A stretch of DNA of 64,000 nt from Cupriavidus sp. MP-37. Its GTDB lineage: Bacteria; Pseudomonadota; Gammaproteobacteria; Burkholderiales; Burkholderiaceae. Location: contig NZ_CP085345.1 in assembly GCF_020618415.1 (NCBI RefSeq), positions 2,170,001 to 2,234,000 of the forward strand, written 5' to 3'. Below are positions 25,480 to 41,380 of the stretch, piece after piece. The number at the start of each line of letters is the position of its first letter. Positions within the stretch are counted from its first letter, which is position 1. Made by a program: the position numbers and the translations under genes. The notes beneath the pieces are model-generated. The model saw only the letters and a program-made list of their open reading frames with translations, had not been told where the DNA came from and searched no databases.

Positions 25480-25498
25480 GGCTAGTGGCGCACTAGCC
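25480..25498. repeat. Perfect inverted repeat (8-bp arms, 3-nt centre)
   Basis: Arms GGCTAGTG and CACTAGCC are separated by GCG. It lies about 170 bp upstream of the porin. A regulator binding site is possible; nothing nearby identifies the protein. Confidence 0.5.
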
Positions 25499-25593
25499 CG
25501 ACTTGATCCCCATCCGTCCCTCTCGGCGTAGTCGCAAAAACGCACATCGGGGAAAACACTGGCTTCCCCTGTGGGCCTTCGTTGGCTAAATTA

Positions 25594-25607
25594 GTTAAAC
25601 GATTTCC
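25594..25607. promoter_or_regulatory. Imperfect LacI-type operator upstream of the porin
   Basis: GTTAAACGATTTCC matches the perfect palindrome at 26877-26890 in 11 of 14 positions, including the whole left half site. It lies 72 bp before the porin start, a position suited to repression. The island's own LacI regulator is the likely binder, by inference. Confidence 0.45.
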
Positions 25608-25665
25608 AAAGAGAAAGCCTCAGCAAGACCGAGGAAATTAGCCAACCTGAAAGAGGTGAGGGGAG

Positions 25666-26790
25666 ATGAAAGGTAAATGTTTAACCGGCTTGGCTGCAAT
25701 GGGCGTCGCCCTGAGCGTGCAAGCCCAGTCTAATGTGACGGTGTGGGGCCGCGTCGGTGGCGGGGTGGAGTACCTCAGCGGCATCAAGACCGGTCCGAAT
25801 ACCACGGGATCGCGAGTGGCGGAAGGCAGCCACTGGGGGACAAGCATCTGGGGCATACGCGGCAGCGAAGACCTGGGCAATGGCAATCAGGCACTTTTCT
25901 CGCTGGAAGGCGCGTTCGCTTCTGACACCGGTACCCAGGGGGGCGGAAAGCTGTTTCAGCGTGCGGCCTGGGTCGGGCTCAAGAATGAAAAGGCTGGCTT
26001 CCTGCGACTGGGCCAGGGAAATTTCATCAACAACTATATTTGGGGCTACGATCCCTTCTTGCTGGAGGACTATTCAGCTTCCACGTTCACCAACTATCGC
26101 AACGGCGTGAAGCTGGCGAATGGCATTCGCTATGAGGCACCATCGTTTGGCGGTCTGGAGTTCGCCGCACAGTTGAACCTGGGCGAGGGTCTGAATGGCT
26201 TCCGCTCGGGGCCTGCCGACCCGGTCGTGCAAAACGGCATGGCCTGGGGCGCAACGATTGCCTACCGGCAGCCGACTTGGGAAGTTCGTGCCATCTACAA
26301 CGAGCTCAACAACAAGGACGGCAAGATGGACAACCTGTTCATCGCGTCTCGCGAGCTCTTCCTCGGAGGCAAGGCCCGATTTGGCCGGGCATTGGTACAG
26401 GCCGCCTGGGTCCATTACACCGCGCCTGATACTGCCGCAGGCTTGTCGAACCGTGCCGATCATCTGTGGGCGGGCCTGACCTACGATGTGACGCCGCGCT
26501 TCCATGCGCAAAGCGCCATCTATTCGATGAAGGTTGGCAAGGGCAGCTGGACATCCGACCATGATGGTGAAGGTCGCGGCACGATGCTGGCAATCGGCGC
26601 CATGTATGACCTGTCCAAGCGCACTTTCCTCTATGCGAACGTCGCCCACGTGTGGAACAGCGCCAATGCCAACTTCTCTGTGCGCCCCACGGCGCCAGGG
26701 TATGGGAATCCGATCACTGGCAACAGCACAAGAACGTTGCCGGGCCGTGGGCAGACGGGCGCCTTCGCGGGCGTCATGCACAACTTCTGA
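25666..26790 (+). CDS. Gram-negative porin (Burkholderiales OmpC-like type)
   Basis: A 374-residue protein with a signal peptide (MKGKCLTGLAAMGVALSVQAQ) followed by NVTVWGRVGGGVEYL, the usual first strand of 16-stranded beta-proteobacterial porins. Other features are RGSEDLGNGNQALFSLEGAF, the L3-like segment and a terminal Phe in GVMHNF, which is the outer-membrane assembly signal. It would admit sugars or sugar acids through the outer membrane for the ABC transporter downstream. A GAGGTGAGGGGAG site precedes the ATG. It opens the catabolic island. Confidence 0.93.
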   Translation: MKGKCLTGLAAMGVALSVQAQSNVTVWGRVGGGVEYLSGIKTGPNTTGSRVAEGSHWGTSIWGIRGSEDLGNGNQALFSLEGAFASDTGTQGGGKLFQRAAWVGLKNEKAGFLRLGQGNFINNYIWGYDPFLLEDYSASTFTNYRNGVKLANGIRYEAPSFGGLEFAAQLNLGEGLNGFRSGPADPVVQNGMAWGATIAYRQPTWEVRAIYNELNNKDGKMDNLFIASRELFLGGKARFGRALVQAAWVHYTAPDTAAGLSNRADHLWAGLTYDVTPRFHAQSAIYSMKVGKGSWTSDHDGEGRGTMLAIGAMYDLSKRTFLYANVAHVWNSANANFSVRPTAPGYGNPITGNSTRTLPGRGQTGAFAGVMHNF

Positions 26791-26876
26791 ATCCCGATCA
26801 TGCAAGCCAAAGGGGGTAAACACTTAGCCTGGAGAACTCTCCAAAGCCCTTCGACCGTATATCATTCGCTCATCAG

Positions 26877-26890
26877 GTTAAACGTTTAAC
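26877..26890. promoter_or_regulatory. Perfect palindromic LacI-type operator
   Basis: GTTAAACGTTTAAC is a perfect 14-bp palindrome with a central CG, the hallmark of GalR/LacI-family operators. It lies 73 bp before the binding-protein start. The LacI gene at 35728 in the same cluster is the obvious candidate regulator. The flanking bases (GG on the left, AAAAA on the right) are not symmetric. Confidence 0.75.
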
Positions 26891-26962
26891 AAAAATTTTC
26901 GAGCGAACCGGGACAGGCCTGTCTGGCTGTCCCGCCAGTTCGCCGCATCTGTGGAGGAAGAC

Positions 26963-28204
26963 ATGAAGCGTCAACTTATCCCAGGTCTGCTGGGAAGCTT
27001 GCTGGGCATTGCGACCGCTACGGCGATTGCAGCGCCCGTCGAATTGAACATCAGTGCCTGGAAGGGCGGGGCGGCTGAACCGGCAGCGGTTCCCGAACTG
27101 ATTGCAAAGTTCGAGAAGGAAAATCCCGACATCAAGATCAAGTTCGATTACATCGCCCGCAACGACACCACGACGATTCTGTCTTCGCGTCTGCAGGGTG
27201 GCTCCGCGCCCGACGTGATGATGGTGGACCGCCCCTTGATGCGCCAATGGGCGTCGGCAGGTCAACTGCTGGACCTCAGCGGCGACCCGGCCATCAGCCG
27301 GCTGTCCGCGGATGTGAAGCCGCTGGCCCAGCTCGGCGGCAAGACGTTCATGATGCCGATGGAGATCGTTGGCATTGGCCTGTTCGCCAATCTGGACCTG
27401 TTGAAAAAGGCGGGTGTCGAACAGGTGCCGACCACCATTGGTGAAATGAAGGCGGCTTGCGGCAAGCTCCGCGCCGCAGGTATCACGCCGCTGCTGTTGC
27501 CGGCCAAGGATGGTTGGGCGCCTGCCATGCTGGCATTGTCCATGGGGCTTGCGCCAAGCGTGAAAGCGAATCCCGCTTTCGTCAGCGAGGTCGTTTCCGG
27601 CAAGCAGAAGTTCTCGGCAAGCCCCAACTTCAGGCAGGCCGTTGCCTCGGTGAAGGAACTGGCTGAAGCCAAGTGCTTCGATCCGAAGCTCAACGTTGGC
27701 ATTGACCCGTGGGGACTTGGCCTGACCGAGTTCACCGCGGGTCGCGTAGCCATGATCCCGCAGGGTGCGTGGAGCATTCAGAAGATGACGGTGGATGGCA
27801 AGGCTGTCAACTTTGCGTTCGCGCCGTTGCCAGGACTGGAGGGCGGCAAGGCGAGCGGCATTGACATGTTGGGCACGGCCTGGGCGATCAATGCTTCCAC
27901 GAAGAATGCCGCGGCGGCCAAGCGCTGGGTGCAGTTCTGGACCAAGGATGAGAATCTCGGCAAGTTCCTGCAGGCAGAGGCCGCGTTCAGCCCGTTTGCA
28001 GATGGCGCAATCAGGCTGCCCAAGTCGGCACAGCTCTACGCTGACGCGCGCAAGGCCGGCAACACGGTGCCGCATCCAAAGGGGGATGTGTCAGCAGCAT
28101 TCATTCAGGAAGTGCAGAAGAGCATGACGGCGTTCCTGTTGAACATCAACCAGGATGCGACTGCCGTACTGGCCCGCTGGGACAACGCGCCCCAGCAGCA
28201 ATAG
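26963..28204 (+). CDS. Sugar ABC transporter substrate-binding protein
   Basis: The start at 26963 follows GTGGAGGAAGAC and gives 413 residues with a signal peptide (cleaved near AIAAPVELN). It belongs to the extracellular solute-binding family 1 (maltose/glycerol-phosphate type): ISAWKGGAAEPAAVPELIAK near the N-terminus, FVQFWT-like RWVQFWTKDENLGKF near 310. It captures a sugar, probably an aldose or sugar acid, in the periplasm. It is the first gene after the LacI operator and is separated from the permease genes by a hairpin at 28223-28254. Confidence 0.92.
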   Translation: MKRQLIPGLLGSLLGIATATAIAAPVELNISAWKGGAAEPAAVPELIAKFEKENPDIKIKFDYIARNDTTTILSSRLQGGSAPDVMMVDRPLMRQWASAGQLLDLSGDPAISRLSADVKPLAQLGGKTFMMPMEIVGIGLFANLDLLKKAGVEQVPTTIGEMKAACGKLRAAGITPLLLPAKDGWAPAMLALSMGLAPSVKANPAFVSEVVSGKQKFSASPNFRQAVASVKELAEAKCFDPKLNVGIDPWGLGLTEFTAGRVAMIPQGAWSIQKMTVDGKAVNFAFAPLPGLEGGKASGIDMLGTAWAINASTKNAAAAKRWVQFWTKDENLGKFLQAEAAFSPFADGAIRLPKSAQLYADARKAGNTVPHPKGDVSAAFIQEVQKSMTAFLLNINQDATAVLARWDNAPQQQ

Positions 28205-28222
28205 ACCATCGCTCTCACGTGG

Positions 28223-28254
28223 CGTTGATGCCACGGACGTTCGTGGCATCAACG
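28223..28254. repeat. Strong intercistronic hairpin after the binding-protein gene
   Basis: CGTTGATGCCACG (28223-28235) and its exact complement (28242-28254) form a perfect 13-bp stem with a 6-nt loop. It sits between the binding-protein gene and the first permease gene and lacks a T-tract. Such structures usually protect the upstream mRNA from 3' exonucleases or cause partial termination, giving more binding protein than permease. Confidence 0.7.
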
Positions 28255-28267
28255 ATGCAGGAATGAT

Positions 28268-29137
28268 ATGAGTAAAAAGCACCACTTGCTATGGTTCGCG
28301 GCCCCGGCGCTGTTGCTGTACGCAGTCTTCGGGATCTATCCGCTGATCAGCGCCGTGAAACTGAGCTTCACCAGTTTCGCAGGCGTGGGGGAGCCGAAAT
28401 GGATCGGCTTGAAGAACTATTTCGAGATCCTCATGGATCCCGCTTACCTCACGGTACTGAAGGTCACGCTGGCATATACGGTCATTGTGGTTACGGTCCA
28501 GAACCTGCTTGGGCTCTTGTTTGCCGCCTTGCTGTTCTCAGTGCCAAAAATCCGCAGCGGCGCCCGTGTGGCGATGCTGGTTCCGAGCATGTACTCGGCG
28601 GTGATCGCAGCCTTTGTCTGGCAGTACATCTACTCCCCGCTGGGCGGTGGCCTCAATGAAATCCTGAAGGCGGTCGGGCTGGCCGACTACCAAAGCACCT
28701 GGCTGGGCGAGCCATCGATTGCGCTGTTCTCTGTGGCAGCCGTCCAGATCTGGATGTACGTGGGGTACTCGACGGCCATCTTTCTCGCAGGCTACCTGAG
28801 CATCCCCGCCGAACTGCATGACGCGGCGAGGATTGATGGCGCCAATTCCTGGCAACGCTTTGCGAGGATCGACGTGCCGCTGTTGGCGCCATCGTTCACT
28901 GTGAACATCACGCTGAGCACCATCGGCACGCTCAAGAGCTTTGAGCTTCCGCTCGTGCTGACGCAGGGGGGGCCGGACGGTGCGACGACAACGCTTGGCC
29001 TGCAGATTTTCAACAGCCTGTTCAACGATTACCGCTTTGGCTTCTCCAGCGCATTGTCCATCGTCATGCTGCTGATGATCGTTTTCATTGCCTACACGCA
29101 GAACTGGTTCTTGCGCAAGCGGGAGCAATCCGTATGA
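28268..29137 (+). CDS. Sugar ABC transporter permease (MalF-like)
   Basis: 289 residues with six predicted membrane helices. The EAA loop that contacts the ATPase is recognisable in AELHDAARIDGANSWQRFARIDVPLL, near residue 180. The protein belongs to the CUT1 permease family. It starts about 14 bp after the intercistronic hairpin, behind a GCAGGAATGAT site. The stop overlaps the ATG of the second permease gene (ATGA), so the two are translationally coupled. Confidence 0.93.
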   Translation: MSKKHHLLWFAAPALLLYAVFGIYPLISAVKLSFTSFAGVGEPKWIGLKNYFEILMDPAYLTVLKVTLAYTVIVVTVQNLLGLLFAALLFSVPKIRSGARVAMLVPSMYSAVIAAFVWQYIYSPLGGGLNEILKAVGLADYQSTWLGEPSIALFSVAAVQIWMYVGYSTAIFLAGYLSIPAELHDAARIDGANSWQRFARIDVPLLAPSFTVNITLSTIGTLKSFELPLVLTQGGPDGATTTLGLQIFNSLFNDYRFGFSSALSIVMLLMIVFIAYTQNWFLRKREQSV

Positions 29138-30015
29138 GCACCACCACCTTACCGCATGTCGAGGGACGTTCCCGCGGCCGCACCCTGATCAGCTTGCGAG
29201 GCATGTCCGGAATGTTCCGCTCGGCCCTGGCGGTCGGTATTGTCGCTGTCATCCTGCTGCCGATCTTCTACATGCTGATGATGTCGGTTCGCTCTGGCAG
29301 CGAGATTGCCGCGGCTCCGCTCGGGTTGCCCAGGGGATTTCACTGGGAAAACTACGTTCGGACATTCGCTGCCATGAATTACTGGCGCAGCGTAGCCAAC
29401 ACGCTGGGGATCACCGTCGTAGTCACGGTACTGGTTTCCCTGCTTGCCTCGATGGCGGCCTATCCGCTGGCCCGCATCCGCGGTGCGATCTCGAGCCTCC
29501 TGTACATGGTGCTCACGCTGGGCCTGACCATTCCGATGTTCGTGAGCCTGACCCCGATTTATCTGCTGTTGCGTGACCTGGGCCTTCTCAACTCGTATGC
29601 CGGGATCATCCTGGCCTACACCGTTCTCAACTTGCCGCTCGGGGTGTTCTTCTACGCGAGCTTTTTGAAGAGCGTGCCGATGGAACTGGAAGAAGCCGCG
29701 GTGCTCGACGGCTGCACGCCGTGGCAGGTGTACCGCTACATCATCCTGCCCTTGCTGCGGCCGATCACCGGCACGTTGGCGATGTTCGTCACGCTCCACG
29801 TCTGGAACGATCTTGTCTATCCGCTGCTGTTCCTGTCGGATCCTGAGAAGTTTCCGATCACCGTTTCCGTGTTTCGCTTTATCGGCACCATGGACGTGGA
29901 CCCGACCAAGCTGTTCCCCGCTGCAGTGATGGGGACCCTGCCGCTGCTGATCATGTTTCTCGTCCTGCAGCGCAGGATCGTGGCCGGCATTACCGCAGGT
30001 GCCGTAAAGGGGTAA
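29134..30015 (+). CDS. Sugar ABC transporter permease (MalG-like)
   Basis: 293 residues with six predicted helices and the EAA motif MELEEAAVLDGCTPWQVYRY around residue 190. It pairs with the upstream permease to form the CUT1 channel. The ATG overlaps the upstream stop by 4 bp and the next gene starts 3 bp after this stop, so the operon is tightly packed. The ATPase is encoded later (31992), after the SDR and dgoD genes, an unusual interruption. Confidence 0.93.
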   Translation: MSTTTLPHVEGRSRGRTLISLRGMSGMFRSALAVGIVAVILLPIFYMLMMSVRSGSEIAAAPLGLPRGFHWENYVRTFAAMNYWRSVANTLGITVVVTVLVSLLASMAAYPLARIRGAISSLLYMVLTLGLTIPMFVSLTPIYLLLRDLGLLNSYAGIILAYTVLNLPLGVFFYASFLKSVPMELEEAAVLDGCTPWQVYRYIILPLLRPITGTLAMFVTLHVWNDLVYPLLFLSDPEKFPITVSVFRFIGTMDVDPTKLFPAAVMGTLPLLIMFLVLQRRIVAGITAGAVKG

Positions 30016-30018
30016 GCC

Positions 30019-30807
30019 ATGGGTGAAATGCACTACAACCTGACCGGGCGCATCGTTGTCGTAACCGGAGGCGGTGCCGGCATCGGCCTCGGCATTGTCA
30101 AGGTCTTGGCCGGGCAAGGCGCTCGGGTTGTGATGGCCGAATGCAACCCGGCCGGCCGACAGGTTGCCGAGTCTCTCAGAGATGCGGACCTCGACGTGAG
30201 GTGGGTGCCGTGCGATGTCAGCGACCCGCTAAGCATTGAAGACCTGTTCTCGCTCGTTTCACGCGAGTACGGTGGCGTCGACGGGCTCGTCAATAACGCC
30301 GGGCTGACGATCCATGAGGACTTTTTGGAGGCGAGCCTGGCGAACTTGCAGCGCATGATCAACACGAATCTGCGCTCGGTGTTCCTGTGTACCCAGCAGG
30401 CCGCGCGTTTGATGAAGGACGTTGGCCGAGGCGGCGCAATCGTCAATCTGTCGTCGAACCACGCCGGTGCGAGCATGGAAGGCTTCGAGGGCTATGCGGC
30501 GACCAAGGGCGGGATTTGCGCAATGACTCGCGCCATGGCCTGGAGCCTGGGGCAGTACGGCATCCGGGTGAACTCGCTGAGCCCGGGCCTCACCTCGACT
30601 GATCACATCAGCCAACTGATGCAGGACCGGCCGCAGCTCCAGCGCTTCTATCCGTCATTGCATGCCACGCGCCGTATCAACGCTCCGGAGGACGTAGGCC
30701 AGATCGCGGCGTTTCTGATTTCGGATGCCTCGATCGGCATCACCGGTGCGGACCTGCTGGCGGACAACGGCCTGTCGGCGCATCTATTCAACCGCCACGA
30801 AGACTGA
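30019..30807 (+). CDS. SDR-family dehydrogenase, candidate aldose 1-dehydrogenase
   Basis: A 262-residue classical short-chain dehydrogenase. The dinucleotide motif TGGGAGIG is at 16-23, NNAG at 92-95, the catalytic Ser at 145/146 (NLSSN), Tyr159 and Lys163 (YAATK). Asp/Glu after strand 2 (MAECN, residue 41) suggests NAD preference. Its place between the permeases and galactonate dehydratase makes it the likely enzyme that oxidises the imported aldose to a lactone; this is inference from context. A D-galactose or L-arabinose substrate fits, since these share stereochemistry at the reacting carbons. Confidence 0.88.
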   Translation: MGEMHYNLTGRIVVVTGGGAGIGLGIVKVLAGQGARVVMAECNPAGRQVAESLRDADLDVRWVPCDVSDPLSIEDLFSLVSREYGGVDGLVNNAGLTIHEDFLEASLANLQRMINTNLRSVFLCTQQAARLMKDVGRGGAIVNLSSNHAGASMEGFEGYAATKGGICAMTRAMAWSLGQYGIRVNSLSPGLTSTDHISQLMQDRPQLQRFYPSLHATRRINAPEDVGQIAAFLISDASIGITGADLLADNGLSAHLFNRHED

Positions 30808-30809
30808 AT

Positions 30810-31961
30810 ATGAAGATCGCAAAGCTTGAACTGTTTCGGGTAGCACCACGCTGGCAATTCCTGAAGATTGAAACCGATGAAGGCGTGTCCGGCTGGGGCG
30901 AGCCCATTGTCGAAGGGCGTGCGGAAACGACGGCGGCCGCGGTCGAGGAACTCTCCGACCATCTGATCGGCAAGGACCCCAGGCATATCGAGGACCTGTT
31001 CCAGGTAATGTACCGCGGTGGCTTCTATCGCGGCGGCCCCGTACTCAGCAGTGCCATATCCGGCATCGAACAAGCGCTGTGGGACATCAAGGGCAAGGTG
31101 CTAGGCATTCCCGTCTACGAACTTCTGGGCGGGCCGGTGAGAAACAAGGTCAGGCTCTATGCGCACGTACGTGGAGACTCGCCCGAGGAATACGCCGCCA
31201 ACGCGCGCCAGCTGGTCGAGGCCGGTTATACCGCGCTGAAAATGGGAGTGGTCGCTGAAACCGATTGGGTTGAGCGGCCCGCTTCGATTGACGCGGCCGT
31301 TGCCAGGTTTGCAGCGGTGCGCGAAGCAGTGGGGCGCGACGTTGGGGTGGGCATCGACTTCCATGGGCGTGTACGCCGTCCGGTGGCGAAAGTCATCGCA
31401 AAAGCGATAGAGCCATTCGACCCGATGTTCTACGAGGAACTGCTATTGCCAGGAAATACCGATGCCCTGCGCGAAGTGGCGCGGACCTGTGCGGTGCCGC
31501 TGGCCACCGGTGAACGGATGTTCACCCGCTGGGAATTCAAGTCCGTGCTGGCAGAGGGCATTGTGGACATCATCCAGCCCGATGTCAGCCATGCCGGAGG
31601 CATCTGGGAGATGCGCAAGATCGCCGCCATGGCAGAGGCCTACGACGTTGCGGTGGCGCCGCACTGCCCCTTGGGTCCGTTGACGTTGGCGGCTTCCCTG
31701 CAGCTCGATTACTGCACGCCCAACGCCTTTATCCAGGAGCAATCCACCAACGTCGCCTATCACGCGGACAGTGAGAACGCCATGTTCCGCTATCTGCATG
31801 GCAACCCGTTCGAGTTCCGGGATGGTTTTGTTGCCCGCACGGCAAGCCCGGGGCTGGGCGTGGAGATCAATGAGGAAGCGGTACGGGAAGCGGCCGTGAC
31901 CGGCCATCGCTGGCGCAACCCGGTATTCCGCCTTGAGGACGGCTCGATCGCCGAATGGTAA
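30810..31961 (+). CDS. dgoD: D-galactonate dehydratase
   Basis: A 383-residue enolase-superfamily enzyme that aligns closely with E. coli DgoD along its length. The catalytic residues fall at the same numbers: metal ligands Asp183, Glu209 and Glu235, His185 (GIDFHGRV) and His285 (APHCPLGP). The C-terminus GSIAEW is also conserved. It converts D-galactonate to 2-keto-3-deoxy-D-galactonate. It starts 2 bp after the SDR gene and, with dgoK and dgoA downstream, completes the De Ley-Doudoroff lower pathway. Confidence 0.93.
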   Translation: MKIAKLELFRVAPRWQFLKIETDEGVSGWGEPIVEGRAETTAAAVEELSDHLIGKDPRHIEDLFQVMYRGGFYRGGPVLSSAISGIEQALWDIKGKVLGIPVYELLGGPVRNKVRLYAHVRGDSPEEYAANARQLVEAGYTALKMGVVAETDWVERPASIDAAVARFAAVREAVGRDVGVGIDFHGRVRRPVAKVIAKAIEPFDPMFYEELLLPGNTDALREVARTCAVPLATGERMFTRWEFKSVLAEGIVDIIQPDVSHAGGIWEMRKIAAMAEAYDVAVAPHCPLGPLTLAASLQLDYCTPNAFIQEQSTNVAYHADSENAMFRYLHGNPFEFRDGFVARTASPGLGVEINEEAVREAAVTGHRWRNPVFRLEDGSIAEW

Positions 31962-31991
31962 GGCACGGGCGCTAACGAACAGGGAATTGAC

Positions 31992-33080
31992 ATGGCAAGA
32001 GTTGCACTGCAAAAACTGGGCAAGCGATATGACGACGGTACGGAAGTCATTCGCAATGTCAGCCTCGATATCGAGGACGGCGAGTTCATGGTGTTTGTCG
32101 GACCGTCCGGCTGCGGCAAGTCGACAATGCTCCGGATGCTCGCGGGCCTGGAGGACATCACGCAAGGGGACCTCACCATCGGCGAGCGGCGTGTCAATGA
32201 CGTCGCACCGTCCAAGCGTGGTGTCTCCATGGTGTTCCAGAGCTACGCGCTGTATCCGCACATGACGGTGTACGAAAACATGGCATTCGGCCTCAAGCTT
32301 GCCGGCGCGAGCCGGGACGAGGTGGACCGCCTGGTGCGGCAGACGGCGGAGACCCTCAAGCTCACGCCGTTGCTCGGCCGCCGGCCGAAGGCACTTTCAG
32401 GCGGCCAACGCCAGCGTGTCGCCATTGGCCGCGCCATTGTGCGCAAGCCAGACGTTTTCCTGTTTGACGAGCCGCTATCCAACCTTGACGCTGCGCTGCG
32501 CGTGCAGATGCGTATCGAACTGGCGCGGCTCCATAGCCAGCTCAAGGCCACGATGATCTATGTCACGCATGATCAGATCGAGGCCATGACGCTCGGGGAC
32601 CGCATCGCCGTCTTCAACGGCGGTGTCATCGAGCAGGTCGGGCGGCCGCTGGAACTGTACAACCGCCCGGCCAATCGCTTCGTCGCTACGTTCCTGGGAT
32701 CGCCCAGCATGAATATCATGCCTGCCGATTTTTCCGTTGCGGCGGACGGCGTGCGCAAAGCCACCATCGGCGCAGTGACATCGTTTTCGCTTGGCCAGGG
32801 CGAACGGCGTGTGCCAGAGGCGGCGGGTGCCATCGGGATCCGGGCCGAGCATATCGAAATGGGACCAGCCGGTAGCCTCGACGTGCCGGGCCGCACCCGG
32901 CTCGTCGAACACCTGGGAGAGATGGCCATCGCTTACGTCGAGATTCAAGGCCACAGCGAACCCATCGCGGTGAAGCTCAAGGCGGAGGAAGGCGACATCC
33001 AGATTGGCCAGAATGTCGGGCTGCGCTTCCCGCCACAGCACGTCTTTGCTTTCGAGGCGAATGGGACGACGGTCTATTGA
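31992..33080 (+). CDS. Sugar ABC transporter ATP-binding protein (MalK/UgpC type)
   Basis: A 362-residue ATPase: Walker [10 protein letters not shown] (37-45), Q-loop [10 protein letters not shown], signature LSGGQ (135-139), Walker B FLFDE (156-160) and switch His193 (YVTHD). The C-terminal part (about 240-360) is the OB-fold regulatory domain of CUT1 ATPases. It energises the two-permease importer encoded 2 kb upstream. It is separated from dgoD by 30 bp and preceded by an AACAGGGAATTGAC site. Confidence 0.93.
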
Positions 33081-33141
33081 TGACGGTTCCGACGTGGGTA
33101 GACATAAGAACAGACAAAGCAATTTAGAGGCTGATGCGGGA

Positions 33142-34050: not shown

Positions 34051-35012
34051 TGATCTGTTCCGACGGCCACTTGCCTCCAGTCGCACCGCGAGTCGAGCGG
34101 GAAGCACCAGGGCTGATCGCCGTGGATTGGGGGACCTCTTCGTTCCGTGCCGCACTGATGTCTGCCGGCGGTGAGGTCCTGTCGTCAGTGTCGACCTCGG
34201 ATGGCATTGCGACGGTGCCGGCATCGGACTTCCATGGCGTGTTCGCGCGCGCCCTGGCCGGCTGGAAGAGCGAGATCCGTGAGTTGCCGATCTATTTGTG
34301 CGGAATGGTCGGGAGCCGCCAGGGTTGGGTGGAAACCGGCTATGCCGATTGCCCGGCCGGCTTTGACGCGATTGCCCGTGCCGTCGTGCGAAGAGAGGTC
34401 GAAGGCATGGCCATGCGGTTCATCCCCGGATTGCACAGCCATGAACTACCTCATGGCCATGATGTGATGCGGGGCGAGGAAACGCAGGTAATCGGCGTGA
34501 TGGGGTTCGACCGGGAAGAACTCGTCGTCACCCCGGGCACGCATTCCAAATGGATCCTGTGCAGGAACCAGGCGGTCACGCAGTTCAGGACCTTCATGAC
34601 CGGCGATCTGTACGCCGCCATGAAATCTCACACCATTCTGGCCCGCTCGATTGGCGTGGGGCAGTCACCATCAACGGATTCCCCCGCCTTCACGCAAGGC
34701 GTCAAGGCGGGCTATTCGTCGGTCAGCCTGCTGGCTGATGCATTTGCGGTACGTGCCCGCAGCCTCTATGAAGGTGAGGATTTCGATGCGGTGAGCTACC
34801 TTTCAGGTCTGCTCATCGGGGAGGAACTGGGCGCGGGCGTGACCTGTTTTCCGGCCGCCCGCCGCACCGGCGTGAAATTCGTCGGTTCGCCGGCGCTGAC
34901 CGCGTGCTATGCCTATGCTGCGGCGTGCCTGGATATCCAGGCCGAAGTGGCTGATCCGAATGCAAGCTTTATGGGTTGCCACCAGGTGGCCCGGTTCAAT
35001 GGAGAGGTATGA
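34047..35012 (+). CDS. dgoK: 2-dehydro-3-deoxygalactonokinase
   Basis: 321 residues. The N-terminal nucleotide-binding motif IAVDWGTSSFRAAL and the central stretches LCGMVGSRQGWVETGYADCP, MRGEETQVIG and TPGTHSKWI are characteristic of DgoK (an ASKHA-fold kinase). It phosphorylates 2-keto-3-deoxy-D-galactonate at the 6-position. It overlaps both neighbours by 4 bp, indicating tight coupling in dgoD-lactonase-dgoK-dgoA order. The start could also be the adjacent ATG two codons in. Confidence 0.93.
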   Translation: MMICSDGHLPPVAPRVEREAPGLIAVDWGTSSFRAALMSAGGEVLSSVSTSDGIATVPASDFHGVFARALAGWKSEIRELPIYLCGMVGSRQGWVETGYADCPAGFDAIARAVVRREVEGMAMRFIPGLHSHELPHGHDVMRGEETQVIGVMGFDREELVVTPGTHSKWILCRNQAVTQFRTFMTGDLYAAMKSHTILARSIGVGQSPSTDSPAFTQGVKAGYSSVSLLADAFAVRARSLYEGEDFDAVSYLSGLLIGEELGAGVTCFPAARRTGVKFVGSPALTACYAYAAACLDIQAEVADPNASFMGCHQVARFNGEV

Positions 35013-35650
35013 TGGAAGGGGTCAGCAGCGCGGCGCGTTTCAATGCCCTGATGTCGCAATGCCCTATCGTTGCGATACTGCGAGGCATCCGGCCGGCGGA
35101 AGTGGTGTCGGTTGGCGACGTGCTCATCCGCAGCGGCATCCGGATTATCGAAGTCCCGCTGAATTCGCCAGAGCCGCTGGAGAGCATCTGGCGGCTTGCC
35201 ACCGTGTTTGGGGATACTGCGATGATCGGGGCGGGGACCGTACTTGAAGTTGCCGATGTCACGCATGTCGCCGCAGCCGGCGGTGATCTGGCGGTCTCGC
35301 CGAATGTCAACGTGGCGGTCATTCGAGAAGCGGTGGCTGCCGGCATGGTTTCGCTCCCCGGCGTGGCTACCCCGAGCGAAGCATTTACGGCCCTTTCCGC
35401 CGGAGCCCATGCCCTGAAGGCGTTCCCCGCCGAACAGATCGGCTGCGGCGCCCTCAAGGCATGGAAATCGGTGCTCCCCGCCGATGCAAGAATACTAGCC
35501 GTCGGCGGGGTCGATGCTGCGACCATCCCTGCCTTACGCGAAGCCGGTGTGGCGGGATTCGGCATCGGTGGTACGTTGTACCGGCCGGGCTTATCCGCGG
35601 CGGATGTGGAGGTGCGTGCGAGGGCGCTCGTGGGCGCGTGTGCGATATGA
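35009..35650 (+). CDS. dgoA: 2-dehydro-3-deoxy-6-phosphogalactonate aldolase
   Basis: The start at 35009, behind GGAGAGGT and overlapping dgoK by 4 bp, gives 213 residues of the KDPG/KDPGal aldolase fold. Motifs are IVAILRGI near the N-terminus, IIEVPLNSPEP (catalytic Glu), GAGTVLEV and the Schiff-base lysine in ALKAFPAEQIG. It splits the phosphorylated sugar acid into pyruvate and glyceraldehyde 3-phosphate. The stop overlaps an ATG at 35647 that may be the coupled start of the LacI regulator. Confidence 0.93.
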   Translation: MMEGVSSAARFNALMSQCPIVAILRGIRPAEVVSVGDVLIRSGIRIIEVPLNSPEPLESIWRLATVFGDTAMIGAGTVLEVADVTHVAAAGGDLAVSPNVNVAVIREAVAAGMVSLPGVATPSEAFTALSAGAHALKAFPAEQIGCGALKAWKSVLPADARILAVGGVDAATIPALREAGVAGFGIGGTLYRPGLSAADVEVRARALVGACAI

Positions 35651-35727
35651 GCGATGGCGGGAAGCGACGGGCCGCCCCTGGCGTGGCTGAAGGCCGCGTG
35701 GTCAATCATTCTCAGAGTTATCAGTTA

Positions 35728-36732
35728 ATGGAAAAGAAGAGCGCACCGACGATAAAGGACGTCGCCGCTGCTGCGAAGGTCTCCACCGCAACCGTGTCCA
35801 AGTACATCAACCGGACACAGCGATTTTCGGCTGACGTGGAGGCACGGCTGGCGCAAGCCATCCGGGATCTTGGGTATCACTCCAACCCGATGGCGCGGTC
35901 GATGATCACCGGGCGGTCCAAGACGCTCGGCCTGTCGATCCCCGACATGCACAACCAGTACTTCGCCGGGCTGGTACAGGGTGCAAACCGGGTGGCGATG
36001 AAGCACGGATACAGCCTGTTGCTGGTCGATAGCGAGGAAAACGCCAGCCGGGAGCGCCAGCTGCTCGAAGACCTTTGCATGCGGGTCGACGGGCTGATGA
36101 TCCATTCCAAACTGCGCGAAGACGAAATGGAATGGGTCGATGAGCTGACCAAACCGCTGGTGTTTTTTGACAGGCGCGAGGGTTGGGGCAAGCGCCAGAT
36201 CGAATCCCGCAACCGGCAGGCGGCGTACATGGTGGCGAACTACCTGGTGAAAACCGGCCACCGGCGTATTGCCTATATTGGTTTCGACAAGTCCCGAGCG
36301 GACGAAGAGCGATATATCGGCGCCACTGCCTGCCTCGAGGAACACGGCCTGGCGCTGGCGCGCTTCAACGCCGAGACCTCGTCACCGCAGGAAGGGGCCC
36401 GTCTTTGCTCGAAGATCCTGCTGGGCGCCGACAAGGTCGACGCGGTGATCTGCTTCAACGACATGATCGCCGTTGGCTTCCTGAAGGAAGCCGCGGAACT
36501 TGGCGTTTCGGTACCTCAGGATTGTTCCGTGGTGGGGTTCGACAATATTCCGTTCTGCGAGTACGTCACGCCTACGCTGACATCGGTGGACATGGGCGGC
36601 GAAAGCATAGGGGCGATCGTGACACAGCACCTGATCGACATCCTGGGTGGCCGTGAGTCCCAAGCCGAGTTTCCAGAGCCCAGGCTGGTTCTGCGTAAGT
36701 CGACACGCGGCCGGCAGCAGCATAACGACTGA
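35728..36732 (+). CDS. LacI-family transcriptional regulator of the island
   Basis: With the ATG at 35728 the protein has 334 residues. The HTH (TIKDVAAAAKVSTATVSKYI) starts at residue 8 and the hinge NPMARSMITG follows; the sensor domain has the periplasmic-binding fold. An earlier ATG at 35647 overlaps the dgoA stop (ATGA) and would add a 27-residue tail ahead of the HTH; neither has a clear Shine-Dalgarno. I keep the shorter form because it matches family length. It probably binds the palindrome at 26877 and the weaker site at 25594, with a pathway intermediate as ligand. Confidence 0.9.
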   Translation: MEKKSAPTIKDVAAAAKVSTATVSKYINRTQRFSADVEARLAQAIRDLGYHSNPMARSMITGRSKTLGLSIPDMHNQYFAGLVQGANRVAMKHGYSLLLVDSEENASRERQLLEDLCMRVDGLMIHSKLREDEMEWVDELTKPLVFFDRREGWGKRQIESRNRQAAYMVANYLVKTGHRRIAYIGFDKSRADEERYIGATACLEEHGLALARFNAETSSPQEGARLCSKILLGADKVDAVICFNDMIAVGFLKEAAELGVSVPQDCSVVGFDNIPFCEYVTPTLTSVDMGGESIGAIVTQHLIDILGGRESQAEFPEPRLVLRKSTRGRQQHND

Positions 36733-36774
36733 GCGCGGCGGGACTGTTCGAACCCACACCGAAGAGATGCTGGA

Positions 36775-37617
36775 ATGAATATGACGTTTCATGGCGACGA
36801 TCCTCTGCACGGCGTTGTCACGCATTGCCATCGCATATTGCTTACGGGTGCGGCCGGAAACCTGGGTGCGGAAATGCGCGACCGGCTGAAGCGGTACGCA
36901 GATATCGTGCGTGTTTCCGATCTGGCAGATCCCGGCCAGCCCCGGCCGCATGAAGAGGTGGTGCGCTGCGATCTCGCGGATGCCGACGCCGTGCTAGCCC
37001 TGGTTCAGGGCACGGACGTCATCGTGCATTTTGGCGGCGTCTCGGTGGAGCGTCCGTTCCACGAGATCCTGCCAGCGAATATCCAGGGTACCTTCAATGT
37101 TTACGAGGCAGCACGCCGACACGGCGTAACACGGGTGGTGTTCGCGAGTTCCAATCATGTAACGGGCTTCTACCGGCAGGATGAAGTGATCGACGCCAGT
37201 GCGAGGGTCCGCCCTGACGGCAACTATGGCGTCAGCAAACTGTTTGGCGAAGGCCTGGCGCAACTGTACTTCGACCGGTATGGCATCGAAACGGTGTCGC
37301 TTCGCATCGGATCATCGTTCCCCGAAGCCAGGGACAGGCGAATGCTGGCGACGTGGCTCGGATACGATGACCTGGAGCAATTGCTTTGTCGCGCAATGTT
37401 TGTGCCGGAGGTGGGCCACACGATCGTCTACGGCGTGTCGGCAAATCGCGACTGCTGGTGGGATAACCGTTGTGCCGCGAAGCTCGGGTTTGCTCCGGTC
37501 CAGTCGTCGGAGCCGTTCCGCGCAAAGGCGGAAAGCCTGCCGCCATTGCCGCTTGACGATCCGGCGGCGCGTTTTCAGGGTGGCAGCTTCGTTACCATCG
37601 GCCCCTTCGGCGATTGA
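36775..37617 (+). CDS. udh: Uronate dehydrogenase
   Basis: A 280-residue NAD-dependent epimerase/dehydratase-fold enzyme resembling Agrobacterium and Pseudomonas Udh. TGAAGNLG (24-31) binds NAD; the Ser-Asn-His set FASSNH (124-128), Tyr151-x3-Lys155 (YGVSK) and Arg189 in DRRMLATW correspond to the uronate-binding residues of Udh. The enzyme oxidises D-galacturonate or D-glucuronate to the aldarolactone. The lactonase gene starts 3 bp after this stop, as in known udh-lactonase pairs. Activity on aldoses instead of uronates is possible but less likely given the conserved Arg. Confidence 0.82.
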   Translation: MNMTFHGDDPLHGVVTHCHRILLTGAAGNLGAEMRDRLKRYADIVRVSDLADPGQPRPHEEVVRCDLADADAVLALVQGTDVIVHFGGVSVERPFHEILPANIQGTFNVYEAARRHGVTRVVFASSNHVTGFYRQDEVIDASARVRPDGNYGVSKLFGEGLAQLYFDRYGIETVSLRIGSSFPEARDRRMLATWLGYDDLEQLLCRAMFVPEVGHTIVYGVSANRDCWWDNRCAAKLGFAPVQSSEPFRAKAESLPPLPLDDPAARFQGGSFVTIGPFGD

Positions 37618-37620
37618 GAC

Positions 37621-38511
37621 ATGGTGACATCCATCGAACGCGTAGGCGAAATGCGCTGCCTCGTCGGCGAGAGCCCGGTCTGGCACCCATCGGAGCAGGC
37701 ATTGTATTGGACCGACATTCCGGCCCGCACATTATGGCGCTGGGATATGGAAGCATCTCGGGCCGATCACTGGGCGCTGCCCGAGATGGCCGGATGCCTG
37801 GCCATGACGGCGAGCCACGGATGGCTCATGGCCATGGAATCAGGGCTGTTCCGGATCGGCGGCCCGCCGCCGGGAAGCCCGTTGCCGGTCGCGGAGTGCG
37901 TCGTCGCAACGACTCACGCGCAGCCCGGCATGCGGTTCAATGACGGACGATGTGACCGACAGGGCCGCTTTTGGGCGGGCACCATGGTGATGGACATGTC
38001 GAGGGCGTTGGCTTTGGGCCGGCTCCATCGCTTCGACGTGCTCGCCGGGCGTGAAGAGGCTGTGATCGATGACCTGATCGTTCCCAATGGAATGGCCTTC
38101 TCACCGGATGGCAAGACGATGTACTTGTCCGATTCGCATCCGTCTCGCCGGGCGATCTGGGCCTTCGACTACAACACCGACGAAGGTCGCCCGCACAATC
38201 GTCGCTTGTTTGTCGACATGAACGAATACCCGGGCCGCCCTGACGGTGCGGCAGTCGATGTCGACGGCTGTTACTGGATTTGCGCCAACGATGGTGGGCA
38301 AATCCACCGCTTCACGCCCTCAGGCGCGCTGGACCGAAGCATCAGCCTGCCTGTCGGCAAGCCGGCGATGTGCGCGTTCGGCGGCCCCCGCCTCGACACC
38401 CTTTTTGTGACCACGATATGCCCGGATGGAAGCAGCGACCCGCTGGCTGGGGCCATATTCGCACTGAACCCTGGTGTGCAGGGGATTGTGGAAACACTGG
38501 CGCGGGGCTGA
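37621..38511 (+). CDS. SMP-30/gluconolactonase family lactonase (second copy), candidate aldarolactonase
   Basis: 296 residues. The metal site is intact: Glu17 (VGESPVW), Asn107-Asp108 (RFNDGR), Asn156 (VPNGMAF) and Asp208 (RPDGAAVD). It is only distantly similar to the first lactonase in this cluster, so it is not a recent duplicate. Its position 3 bp after udh suggests hydrolysis of galactaro- or glucarolactone, as proposed for UxuL-type lactonases. The product would be galactarate or glucarate; no classical GarD/GudD dehydratase is in the window. Confidence 0.85.
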   Translation: MVTSIERVGEMRCLVGESPVWHPSEQALYWTDIPARTLWRWDMEASRADHWALPEMAGCLAMTASHGWLMAMESGLFRIGGPPPGSPLPVAECVVATTHAQPGMRFNDGRCDRQGRFWAGTMVMDMSRALALGRLHRFDVLAGREEAVIDDLIVPNGMAFSPDGKTMYLSDSHPSRRAIWAFDYNTDEGRPHNRRLFVDMNEYPGRPDGAAVDVDGCYWICANDGGQIHRFTPSGALDRSISLPVGKPAMCAFGGPRLDTLFVTTICPDGSSDPLAGAIFALNPGVQGIVETLARG

Positions 38512-38623
38512 TTCGCGTTCGCACTGCGGCAAGCCTGCCAATGCGAATGCGAGTGCTTTAGTGTTTTCGGAGGTGCCCGGCGGCACGGCCGCCAGGAACA
38601 AGACAACAAGGTGGAAGAGACAA

Positions 38624-40363
38624 ATGACGGCTCGCAAGAAAACGCCGGACGCGCTGCGCAGCGCGCGCTGGTTCGCACCCGATGACCTGCGTTCGTCGGG
38701 GCATCGGTCCCGGATCATGCAGATGGGCTACGCGCCGGGCGAGTGGATGGGCAAGCCGGTCATCGCCATCATCAATACGTGGTCCGACATCAATCCCTGC
38801 CACGCCCACTTCAAGCAGCGCGTCGACGACGTCAAGCGCGGCATCCTCCAGGCCGGCGGCTTTCCGATCGAACTGCCGGCGATCTCGCTGTCGGAAAGCT
38901 CGGTCAAGCCGACCACCATGCTCTATCGCAATTTCCTTGCGATGGAGGCGGAAGAACTGATCCGCTCGCACCCGATCGACGGCGCCGTGCTGATGGGCGG
39001 CTGCGACAAGACCACGCCGGGCCTGCTGATGGGCGCCACCAGTGCCGGCGTGCCGGCCATCTTCGTTCCCGCCGGGCCGATGCTGCGCGGCAACTACAAG
39101 GGCAACGTGCTGGGCTCCGGCTCGGACGCGTGGAAGTACTGGGACGAGCGCCGTGCCGGCAATATCACCGATGCGCAGTGGACCGGCATCGAGGCCGGCA
39201 TCGCGCGCAGCCACGGCACCTGCATGACCATGGGCACGGCCAGCACGATGACGGCCATTGCCGAAGCCATCGGCATGACGCTGCCCGGCGCGTCGTCGAT
39301 CCCGGCGGCCGACGCCAACCATATCCGCATGTGCTCCGAGGCCGGCCGCCGCATCGTCGACATGGTGTGGGAAGACCTGACGCCGCAGCGCATCCAGACC
39401 CGACAAGCCTATGAAAACGCGATCGCCGTGGCGATGGCGATGGGCTGCTCGACCAACGCGATCATCCATCTCATCGCCATGGGCCGGCGCGCCGGCCATG
39501 ACATCGGGCTGGAAGACTTCGACGCGGCCAGCCGGCGCGTGCCGGTGATCGCCAATATCCGGCCCAGCGGCGACAAATACCTGATGGAGGACTTCTTCTA
39601 CGCGGGCGGGCTGCCTGCGCTGATGCAGCGCATCAGCGATCGCCTGCACCTGGACGCGCTCACCATTACCGGGCGCCCGCTGGGCGAAACCATCGCCCAC
39701 GCCGAGGTCTACAACGACGACGTGATCCGCACGCCGGAGAACGCGCTGTACCAGCAGGGCGCGCTGGCGGTGCTGAAGGGCAACCTCGCGCCGGACGGCT
39801 GCGTGATCAAGCCCAGCGCGTGCGAGAAACGGTTTTTCCGGCATACCGGCCCGGCGCTGGTGTTCGACGACTACCCTTCGATGAAGGAAGCGGTGGAGCG
39901 CGACGACCTCGACGTCACCGCCGACCATGTGCTGATCCTGCGCAACGCCGGCCCGCAGGGCGGCCCCGGCATGCCGGAGTGGGGCATGCTGCCGATCCCG
40001 AAGAAGCTGGTGAAGCAGGGCGTGCGCGACATGCTGCGCATGTCCGACGCGCGCATGAGCGGCACCAGCTACGGCGCCTGCATCCTCCATGTCTCGCCAG
40101 AATCGTACGTGGGCGGACCTTTCGCCCTGGTGCGCACCGGCGACCTGATCTCGGTCGACATCGAACGGCGCAGCATCCACCTGGAAGTCTCCGATGAAGA
40201 GCTGGCGCGCCGCCGTGCCGAGTGGGCGCCGCCACCGCCGCGCTTCGGGCGCGGCTATGGCTGGATGTTCTCCCGGCATATCCGCCAGGCCAACGAAGGC
40301 TGCGATTTCGATTTCCTGCAAACCGACTTCGGCGCGCCGACCGGCGAACCGAGCATCTACTGA
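38624..40363 (+). CDS. IlvD/Edd-family sugar-acid dehydratase (L-arabinonate dehydratase type)
   Basis: 579 residues from the ATG at 38624 (GTGGAAGAGAC site). The [2Fe-2S] ligands of the aldonate branch are present: Cys59 (NPCHAH), Cys127 (GGCDKT) and Cys200 (HGTCMTMG), plus Lys129 and the catalytic Ser in SDARMSGTSYG (about 479). Length and ligand spacing match L-arabinonate dehydratase rather than dihydroxy-acid dehydratase. It removes water from an aldonate, giving a 2-keto-3-deoxy acid. Codon use here is more G/C-biased than in the preceding dgo genes. The RraA-fold gene follows after 25 bp. Confidence 0.88.
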   Translation: MTARKKTPDALRSARWFAPDDLRSSGHRSRIMQMGYAPGEWMGKPVIAIINTWSDINPCHAHFKQRVDDVKRGILQAGGFPIELPAISLSESSVKPTTMLYRNFLAMEAEELIRSHPIDGAVLMGGCDKTTPGLLMGATSAGVPAIFVPAGPMLRGNYKGNVLGSGSDAWKYWDERRAGNITDAQWTGIEAGIARSHGTCMTMGTASTMTAIAEAIGMTLPGASSIPAADANHIRMCSEAGRRIVDMVWEDLTPQRIQTRQAYENAIAVAMAMGCSTNAIIHLIAMGRRAGHDIGLEDFDAASRRVPVIANIRPSGDKYLMEDFFYAGGLPALMQRISDRLHLDALTITGRPLGETIAHAEVYNDDVIRTPENALYQQGALAVLKGNLAPDGCVIKPSACEKRFFRHTGPALVFDDYPSMKEAVERDDLDVTADHVLILRNAGPQGGPGMPEWGMLPIPKKLVKQGVRDMLRMSDARMSGTSYGACILHVSPESYVGGPFALVRTGDLISVDIERRSIHLEVSDEELARRRAEWAPPPPRFGRGYGWMFSRHIRQANEGCDFDFLQTDFGAPTGEPSIY

Positions 40364-40388
40364 CGCCACCAGACCGGCAAGGACCACC

Positions 40389-41108
40389 ATGACCCGACTC
40401 AGCCCCGCGGTACGGGACCAGCTCAAGACCGTCAGCACCGCCACGCTGTGCACCGCGCTGTTCAAGCGCGGCCTGCGCAACCAGTTTATCCAGGACGTAC
40501 GCCCGCTGAACCCGGAGGGCGGCACCATGGTGGGCGAGGCCTTCACGCTGCGCTATATCCCGGCGCGTGAAGACCTGAACCCCATCACCGTGTTCCAGGA
40601 TCCCGCGCATCCGCAGCGGCAGGCGATCGAGCAATGCCCGCCGGGCGCGGTGCTGGTGATCGACAGCCGCAAGGACGCGCGCGCGGCCTCGGCCGGCTCG
40701 ATCCTGGTCACGCGGCTGATGCAGCGCGGCGGCGCCGGCATCGTCACCGACGGCGGCTTCCGCGATTCGCCCGAGATCGCCCGGCTGGCCATGCCGGCGT
40801 ACCACCAGCGGCCTTCGGCGCCGACCAATCTGACGCTGCACCAGGCGCTGGAATTCAACGTGCCGATCGGCTGCGGCGATGTCGCGGTCTTCCCCGGCGA
40901 CGTGATGGTCGGCGACGGCGAGGGCGTGATCGTGATCCCGGCGCACCTGGCCGAAGAGATCGCCGCCGAGGCCGTGGAGATGACCGCGTTCGAGGACTTC
41001 GTCACCGAGGAAGTGAACAAGGGCCGCTCGATCATCGGGCTCTACCCGCCGACCAGCGAGCAGGCGCGCGAGGACTTCGCGGCCTGGCGCAAGGCAACCG
41101 GCCGCTAG
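40389..41108 (+). CDS. RraA-fold protein, candidate 2-keto-acid aldolase
   Basis: 239 residues from the ATG at 40389. The family core is TDGGFRDSPEIA with Arg125 and Asp126, equivalent to the substrate and metal ligands of HMG/CHA aldolases of this fold. True RraA (RNase E inhibitor) is shorter (about 160 residues); this protein has an extra N-terminal segment and a C-terminal helix. Because it directly follows an aldonate dehydratase, an aldolase or tautomerase acting on the dehydratase product is more plausible than RNA regulation. The substrate is not known. Confidence 0.8.
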   Translation: MTRLSPAVRDQLKTVSTATLCTALFKRGLRNQFIQDVRPLNPEGGTMVGEAFTLRYIPAREDLNPITVFQDPAHPQRQAIEQCPPGAVLVIDSRKDARAASAGSILVTRLMQRGGAGIVTDGGFRDSPEIARLAMPAYHQRPSAPTNLTLHQALEFNVPIGCGDVAVFPGDVMVGDGEGVIVIPAHLAEEIAAEAVEMTAFEDFVTEEVNKGRSIIGLYPPTSEQAREDFAAWRKATGR

Positions 41109-41163
41109 CCGCCCCGCTTCGTCAAGCGCGCCAACGACAACAACACAGGCCGGCAAATGCCAC

Positions 41164-41254
41164 CGTCATTCCCGCGAAGGCGGGAATCCAGCGTCTTAAA
41201 AGTCCCCCACGGGGGACAAAAAGCCACTGGGTCCCCGCCTTCGCGGGGACGACG
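41164..41254. repeat. Dispersed inverted-repeat element (REP/MITE-like), copy 1
   Basis: The left arm begins CGTCATTCCCGCGAAGGCGG and runs to AATCCAG; the right arm is its near-complement ending CGCGGGGACGACG. Each arm is itself a hairpin (CCCGCG-AAGG-CGGG type). The centre has an extra TCCCCC/GGGGGA pair. It follows rraA and could act as a transcription or mRNA end. A second copy lies at 50326-50445. Confidence 0.75.
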
Positions 41255-41380
41255 CCCCGGTTTGCGGGAGCAAGTCGGCAAGTGCAAGACGTGCATGGAC
41301 CTCTCCCGCTTGCAAAACCGCTGACGGTGGAACAGCAGCGCATCCGGTATCGAGGAGCGCCTGGCGGACGCGCTGGTCGC

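Follow-up and report, generated by a model that had tools for sequence, protein, structure and literature searches.

A mosaic genomic island in Cupriavidus sp. MP-37 with galactose genes, a uronate dehydrogenase, and a candidate IlvD-RraA route for aldaric acids

Why an IlvD/Edd dehydratase and an RraA-fold protein are encoded at the end of a gene row for galactose and uronate oxidation is the question raised by a stretch of 64,000 nucleotides from Cupriavidus sp. MP-37 (NCBI RefSeq assembly GCF_020618415.1, contig NZ_CP085345.1). This stretch, hereafter called the window, corresponds to positions 2170001-2234000 of C2, one of the two contigs in the 6.11-Mb genome, and its protein and DNA relatives agree with a place in Cupriavidus. 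Open reading frame (ORF) calls and profile searches of the window revealed a 16-kb island with 15 intact genes, all on the + strand. Judging from the sequence, we put at slightly better than even the chance that this island is a mosaic from two sources for the use of plant-derived sugars, in which a galactose module is joined to a hexuronate module ending in IlvD-RraA. More tentatively, and somewhat short of an even chance, IlvD-RraA may be a third way of degrading aldaric acids, not described so far, in which a [2Fe-2S] IlvD/Edd dehydratase would be followed by an RraA-fold dehydratase/decarboxylase or aldolase.

Insertion site, mosaic structure, and loss of a promoter-like sequence

25228..41363, no strand: insert (genomic island), delimited by blastn; the site is empty in relatives
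25445..38526, + strand: mosaic segment 1, from the porin through lactonase 2; DNA 89.2% identical to G043 (L144) over 13,091 bases
38527..38551, no strand: junction between the mosaic segments; the donor-type IlvD-RraA promoter-like -35 and palindrome are not present
38552..41154, + strand: mosaic segment 2, IlvD-RraA; 95.7-96.5% DNA identity to G044, G039, G025, and G010

The insert was not found at the corresponding site in any of the seven relatives fetched, namely five close ones (L164-L168) and two more distant ones (L169 and L170). In the blastn alignments, the flanks end at 25158-25227 and resume at 41364-41381; they are contiguous in L164-L168, and similarly in L169 and L170, with only about 113 bases between them in L164 (G002). 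The close relatives (G002, G056, G054, G057, and G032) have a CtaD that is 98-99% identical, and a window-type Udh or RraA was not found in these five genomes, G054 and G057 holding only the second type described below. Also, the more distant G043 and G044 have no insert at this site, yet each carries one segment of it elsewhere. The segment from the porin to lactonase 2 is 89.2% identical to G043, against 78-84% for the backbone of that genome, and the IlvD-RraA segment is 95.7% identical to G044, against 82-88% for the backbone. Because each segment matches its own genome above the identity of the flanking backbone, the island is regarded as a two-source mosaic. Both marks of an island, namely an empty site in close relatives and an identity to other lineages exceeding that of the backbone, were thus found, and the two segments would have been acquired horizontally from different sources.

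We also searched a genus sample of 60 genomes, in which matches were counted at E ≤1e-40 for Udh and ≤1e-60 for RraA. The order from the porin to the second lactonase recurs in just one other genome of this sample, G043 (L144), where the gene order is kept and neither IlvD nor RraA was found after lactonase 2; none of the other genomes joins the island to IlvD-RraA. The idea that the 15-gene row is one ancestral operon was therefore ruled out by the mosaic breakpoint. Of the composite island proposed in a preliminary description of this DNA, the joining of galactose and uronate genes stands. The island is not of single origin, IlvD-RraA having been joined on as a mosaic segment. Past lactonase 2 in G043 (L144 14347-18851), ORFs resemble a sugar-phosphate isomerase (in the next frame), a PL8-like polysaccharide lyase, and a tyrosine-recombinase fragment, as judged from translations rather than from a family search.

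The captured pair appears to be well preserved. Compared with four donor-type genomes, the codon changes private to the window are 17 synonymous and 2 nonsynonymous in IlvD and 2 and 1 in RraA, giving 19 and 3 in total; with so few private amino-acid changes, IlvD-RraA shows no decay. Directly past the IlvD-RraA segment, close to where the island ends on the right, an inverted-repeat, REP-like sequence was noticed by eye at 41155-41250, and it could have helped recombination.

Elsewhere in Cupriavidus, IlvD-RraA forms an operon-like unit of its own, equipped with a promoter-like sequence and a palindrome. Of 14 loci compared, 13 have TTGAC upstream of IlvD, followed by ACTAATATATTAGT and then by TTTAAT at promoter-like spacing; as L019 and L153 are the same contig, this makes 12 of 13 distinct loci. 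In L158 (G017), IlvD-RraA has no upstream palindrome, and no GntR gene was recognized adjacent to it. We infer that the ACTAATATATTAGT palindrome is a GntR operator. The window keeps only AGTGCTTTAGTG of the promoter-like arrangement, and the ACTAATATATTAGT palindrome has no match in the window even with ≤3 mismatches allowed. A scan of 35600-41500 found no promoter-like site and three terminator-like sites (3.5 expected), none of which lies between lactonase 2 and IlvD. As the junction is without the usual promoter-like sequence and palindrome, IlvD-RraA probably depends on read-through from the LacI-linked genes. The pair would hence have been captured without its own promoter-like sequence and palindrome and now stands at the end of those genes.

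Proposed reactions and the relatives of the enzymes

36775..37617, + strand: Udh, uronate dehydrogenase; best PDB relatives 6mfh, 3ay3, 3rft, and 3rfx
37621..38511, + strand: SMP-30 family lactonase 2, a putative aldarolactonase; adjoins Udh in 7/7 other fetched window-type Udh loci
38624..40363, + strand: proposed aldarate dehydratase of the IlvD/Edd type, in the clade linked to RraA; NF009559, 1090 bits (cut-off 882)
40389..41108, + strand: RraA-fold enzyme (PRK08245), proposed 2-keto-3-deoxyaldarate dehydratase/decarboxylase or aldolase; NF006093, 366 bits (cut-off 208)

In the hexuronate module, Udh would turn galacturonate or glucuronate into the aldarolactone, which lactonase 2 would open to the aldarate. 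IlvD would then dehydrate the aldarate to 2-keto-3-deoxyaldarate, and RraA would convert this product to alpha-ketoglutarate semialdehyde (KGSA), as FlDet does, or to pyruvate and tartronate semialdehyde; enzymes encoded elsewhere would complete the route. The assignment of Udh is consistent with its four best solved relatives, which match near full length at 269-291 bits (6mfh, 291; 3rft, 273), the next relative scoring 55 bits; three of the four are Udh entries, and 3ay3 is named just as an epimerase-family protein. In the genus sample, 25/60 genomes have a Udh match and 35/60 an RraA match; window-type Udh (71-90%) is found in 14 other genomes, 11 of which also have window-type RraA (87-91%). 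In the preliminary description, one importer may serve several sugars; in each of the seven window-type Udh loci fetched (of 13 outside G043), however, an SMP-30 lactonase gene comes after Udh, together with genes for a TRAP transporter instead. On a plasmid of Burkholderia ubonensis (L099 5279-13807), furthermore, a 74% identical Udh is preceded by CUT1 importer genes and by a gene for a TIM-barrel protein of carbohydrate metabolism, and CUT1 import together with Udh is therefore not unique to the island.

We then consider IlvD, for which 87 sequences were aligned (77 of the window clade, 8 intermediate, and 2 of RlArDHT type, in addition to printed PDB alignments). In the window clade, R23 and R30 are found in 77/77 and R155 in 75/77 sequences, and the eight intermediate rows mostly agree. 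In RlArDHT, Asp23 lies in the recognition helix, close to the C-terminal His579 (PMC11316719). The gained arginines at likely pocket positions may fit a distal carboxylate. The window IlvD ends in Tyr, not in the C-terminal His of the characterized sugar-acid dehydratase type; among 92 IlvD rows above 700 bits (including some duplicate loci), the last residue is Tyr or Phe in 84, His in 7, and Gln in 1. In docking and simulation of PuDHT, the C-terminal His contacts C5-OH and C6-OH (PMC9314677).

As for RraA, G103, R125, D126, and E202 of the window protein align by hand with G101, R123, D124, and E199 of HMG/CHA aldolase (3NOJ), the catalytic and metal-site residues being taken from PMC5065237. 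FlDet of Flavobacterium, also of the RraA family, is reported to convert 2-keto-3-deoxy-D-glucarate to KGSA and to be inactive on all four other keto acids tested (PMC8563752). FlDet has 237 residues and the window RraA 239; 11 of the 19 published N-terminal residues of FlDet, the only ones compared, are identical. The FlDet-type features chosen from the related aldolase, namely the pyruvate-enolate Arg and the metal-binding Asp, are present in the window RraA.

The neighbors of RraA were counted within 6 kb in the best 80 of at least 590 confirmed relatives. IlvD occurs in 70/80 loci and is adjacent on the same strand in 64/80; GntR/FadR regulators occur in 49/80, TctC in 33/80, and enolase-type dehydratases in 7/80. 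An aldehyde dehydrogenase (ALDH) of some type is found in 15/80 and a 2-hydroxyacid dehydrogenase in 9/80, never both; in eight loci the ALDH is like those beside KdgD or L-2-keto-3-deoxyarabonate (L-KDA) dehydratase, by our own grouping. As a guide to the RraA product, these neighbors point both ways, to ALDH and to 2-hydroxyacid dehydrogenase. Neighbor clustering by shared ORFs was dropped, as it was dominated by antisense shadow ORFs in GC-rich DNA; a Pfam look at the neighbor clusters gave an HpcH aldolase, transporter parts, and little else of use. In one locus (L068), RraA-IlvD adjoins a gene that scores highest in NCBIfam with KGSA dehydrogenase, at 520 bits and below the cut-off of 770. 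Profile searches found no KGSA dehydrogenase gene among the 15 island genes.

Other arrangements were also observed around RraA. A thiamine pyrophosphate (TPP)-dependent enzyme is encoded beside GntR-IlvD-RraA in Cupriavidus (L150, L151, L153, and L154) and beside RraA-IlvD in Methylobacterium (L043, L044, L048, L055, and L093), and it is PRK08199-type in both cases checked (L150, 861 bits; L043, 883 bits). On a Skermanella mucosa plasmid (L104 3187-9720), the row consists of IlvD, a GarL-like aldolase of the HpcH/HpaI family (match below cut-off), and RraA, with kdgD close by. In Bosea (L029 and L035), RraA adjoins neither IlvD nor an enolase but a DHDPS-family protein related to L-KDA dehydratase.

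The same genome has a second cluster in which RraA meets Udh:

L005 6925-13792 (G000:C1, about 2.581-2.588 Mb): second uronate-type cluster, with TctC, enolase-superfamily dehydratase, RraA2, Udh2, SMP-30 lactonase, and divergent ALDH

RraA2 is 59% identical to the window RraA, and the only PDB matches of Udh2 at ≤1e-20 are the same four Udh-type sequences. The ALDH of this cluster matches 2,5-dioxovalerate/KGSA dehydrogenases best in NCBIfam, below cut-off. RraA2 and Udh2 are adjacent in all six genus genomes that carry RraA2, and the full set is kept in three other fetched genomes (L159-L161), making four fetched clusters including the present one. We take this second cluster as the best evidence that RraA might act downstream of Udh and a sugar-acid dehydratase, of either superfamily. 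Physical linkage of Udh and RraA as a general rule was nonetheless rejected: in the order-level sample described below, besides G000, just two genomes have both on one contig, G096 at a distance of 24 kb and G114 at one of at least 43 kb, so that the association is one of co-occurrence in the genome.

The remaining features of the island belong to the galactose module and its candidate control sites:

25595..25606, + strand: LacI-type site TTAAACGATTTC, 5' of the porin gene; not above chance alone, a similar sequence being at the same place in L144
25666..26790, + strand: outer-membrane porin; weak NCBIfam porin match, below cut-off
26878..26889, no strand: perfect palindrome TTAAACGTTTAA, LacI-type operator candidate, 5' of the binding-protein gene; matched in 0/100 shuffles, conserved in L144
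26963..28204, + strand: CUT1 sugar-binding protein; matches below cut-offs
28268..29137, + strand: CUT1 permease 1; below cut-offs
29134..30015, + strand: CUT1 permease 2; below cut-offs
30019..30807, + strand: SDR dehydrogenase, presumed D-galactose 1-dehydrogenase; match at family level only
30810..31961, + strand: DgoD, D-galactonate dehydratase; NF010624, 594 bits (cut-off 311)
31992..33080, + strand: UgpC/MalK-type importer ATPase; NF008653, 461 bits (cut-off 432)
33142..34050, + strand: SMP-30 family lactonase 1; family match
34047..35012, + strand: DgoK, 2-keto-3-deoxygalactonokinase; Pfam DGOK PF05035, 268 bits, no NCBIfam match
35009..35650, + strand: DgoA, 2-keto-3-deoxy-6-phosphogalactonate aldolase; NF006600, 257 bits (cut-off 207)
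35728..36732, + strand: LacI-family regulator; profile matches

The De Ley-Doudoroff core, that is, galactonate dehydratase, 2-keto-3-deoxygalactonate kinase, and 2-keto-3-deoxy-6-phosphogalactonate aldolase, is together in the island, and the UgpC-type ATPase at 31992-33080 completes the CUT1 importer. With the porin and the importer, the SDR, lactonase 1, DgoD, DgoK, and DgoA would take D-galactose to pyruvate and glyceraldehyde-3-phosphate; the best NCBIfam match of the SDR is a glucose 1-dehydrogenase subfamily (195 bits, cut-off 215). The named genes of the preliminary description, from the porin to the RraA-fold protein, are indeed present and intact on the + strand. The identification of DgoD, DgoK, DgoA, and Udh bears out its view that a galactose De Ley-Doudoroff set and a uronate oxidation set share one island, in which a dehydrogenase is paired with a lactonase twice over and cleavage is likely to follow two routes. 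Its start coordinate, 25594, adjoins the LacI-type site at 25595-25606.

Alternative roles of IlvD-RraA

It is unlikely, but deserves consideration, that IlvD-RraA degrades an unrelated imported sugar acid such as a C4-C5 diacid and that its place behind udh and the lactonase gene is an accident of recombination. The native set in the genus looks self-contained, since the nine Cupriavidus IlvD-RraA loci fetched all encode a 2-hydroxyacid dehydrogenase along with binding proteins of the TctC type, and eight of them have a GntR gene; among the 80 RraA loci, IlvD is the usual same-strand neighbor (64/80), and Udh lies within 6 kb in just one. A C4-C5 substrate of IlvD is possible and could follow from the observation that a His-to-Phe swap in PuDHT favored shorter acids (PMC9314677). 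The captured piece, however, consists of just two enzyme genes in the same direction, with the promoter-like sequence gone and few private amino-acid changes, and the RraA2 cluster independently ties the RraA family to Udh. Also, in Polaromonas (L026), IlvD-RraA and a TRAP set are divergently oriented, and the TRAP set includes an enolase-like gene and a gene resembling Udh (139 bits).

D-galactose and L-arabinose share the C2-C4 configuration, and it might be supposed that IlvD-RraA serves their monoacids: the SDR and lactonase 1 would give L-arabinonate or D-galactonate, IlvD would dehydrate it, and RraA would cleave the product, so that the galactose operon is widened to pentoses. The NCBIfam equivalog NF009559, which the window IlvD matches at 1090 bits over a cut-off of 882, is indeed named L-arabinonate dehydratase. 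Nonetheless, we hold this to be quite improbable, because a second IlvD of the genome, at C2:1.43 Mb, is nearer to RlArDHT (844 bits, the window IlvD scoring 603), has a C-terminal His, and is encoded in the vicinity of an ALDH-like gene and of a homologue of L-KDA dehydratase (479 bits to 3fkk); this second protein scores 839 bits on the L-arabinonate model, under the cut-off. The window IlvD belongs to another clade, mostly without the C-terminal His and with R23, R30, and R155, and D-galactonate is already covered by DgoD. The L-arabinose part of the preliminary description is weakened accordingly. It is, finally, very improbable that the window RraA is a true RNase E regulator or another non-catalytic protein. 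Many records are annotated as "ribonuclease activity regulator RraA," but the catalytic and metal-binding residues are kept, the linkage to sugar-acid dehydratases of two superfamilies is tight, and the regulator model gives just 45 bits (cut-off 136) vs 366 for PRK08245; we rejected regulation of RNase on residues, context, and model scores.

Several observations weigh against the proposed aldarate route, in addition to the family name of the IlvD model, the rarity of Udh near RraA, and the effect of the His-to-Phe swap mentioned above. Udh and RraA lie on separate contigs in all 11 of the other genus genomes with both window types, many of which are drafts, although G030 and G047 have 3-4 contigs. 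GarD/GudD and KdgD are not beside Udh in the island; GarD, glucarate dehydratase, and KdgD are encoded elsewhere in the genome, so that the notion of IlvD being required for want of aldarate enzymes was rejected, and the island route may be redundant, an alternative rather than an essential one. FlDet acts on the L-erythro diastereomer vs the L-threo one arising from galacturonate oxidation (PMC8563752), and the 2-hydroxyacid dehydrogenase neighbor suits an aldolase product no less well than a semialdehyde. The residues at positions 23, 30, and 155 in the RlArDHT type (Asp/Asn, Trp, and Asn) come from two sequences of our own, this comparison clade being otherwise represented by the printed PDB alignments, and seven members of the IlvD clade, five of them from Methylobacterium, end in His. 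Co-occurrence in the order-level sample of 200 genomes, where Udh is found in 16/17 genomes with RraA vs 26/183 without, speaks for the route, but the difference is uncorrected for genome size and ancestry, with both counts assumed to be drawn from the same 200. In L144 (1-14300), 7 of 13 island genes were matched in more than one open frame; the G043 copy may be broken or badly sequenced, its assembly being 86% complete in about 310 contigs. Taken with these points, a hexuronate module ending in IlvD-RraA is still the reading that we favor.

Significance and comparison with known systems

If the aldarate route is true, at least 8000 RraA relatives (E ≤1e-20), of which many bear the name "ribonuclease activity regulator RraA," would be misnamed, as would the IlvD partners that are called "L-arabinonate dehydratase," and a large protein group named for RNase regulation would gain a testable function. 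Pectin and hexuronate breakdown would gain an aldarate dehydratase of the IlvD/Edd type and, for the step after it, an enzyme of RraA fold, and the island would represent the recent capture of a promoterless IlvD-RraA by a uronate oxidation operon. It would thus be a natural example of a two-gene catabolic module that moved, was parted from its promoter-like sequence and candidate operator, and was placed behind the genes of another regulator. In a literature search by title and the beginning of the abstract, which left subscription journals mostly outside, neither IlvD-RraA nor an IlvD aldarate dehydratase was described among the matches listed; no description of the whole combination was found there either, in agreement with the earlier remark that it is not a standard described operon.

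Compared with the known systems, the island resembles the De Ley-Doudoroff D-galactose pathway in having DgoD, DgoA, DgoK, an SDR, and a lactonase in one row, but it joins this dgo set to a uronate oxidation module, a join also found in G043. RlArDHT of Rhizobium leguminosarum (5J84 and 9EVV; PMC11316719) shares the IlvD/Edd fold with the window IlvD (603 bits near full length) and differs from the window clade in R23, R30, R155, and the mostly Tyr/Phe C-terminus, the IlvD at C2:1.43 Mb being closer to it. HMG/CHA aldolase (PMC5065237) agrees with the window RraA in Gly, Arg, Asp, and Glu at the site of catalysis and metal binding, but it is of another subfamily and is matched only locally (54.7 bits). 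FlDet of Flavobacterium sp. UMI-01 is of the same fold family and near-equal length, whereas it functions in the oxidation of alginate (4-deoxy-L-erythro-5-hexoseulose uronate, DEHU) beside a KGSA dehydrogenase gene, the available part of the source naming no Udh or IlvD beside it (PMC8563752). The bacterial oxidative hexuronate pathway is composed of Udh, a lactonase, GarD/GudD, KdgD, and KGSA dehydrogenase, and Comamonas (L100) provides an annotated example with kdgD and garD nearby. The island shares with it the adjacent Udh and SMP-30 lactonase, but the place of the GarD or enolase-type dehydratase beside Udh is taken by an IlvD/Edd protein and that of KdgD by an RraA-fold protein.

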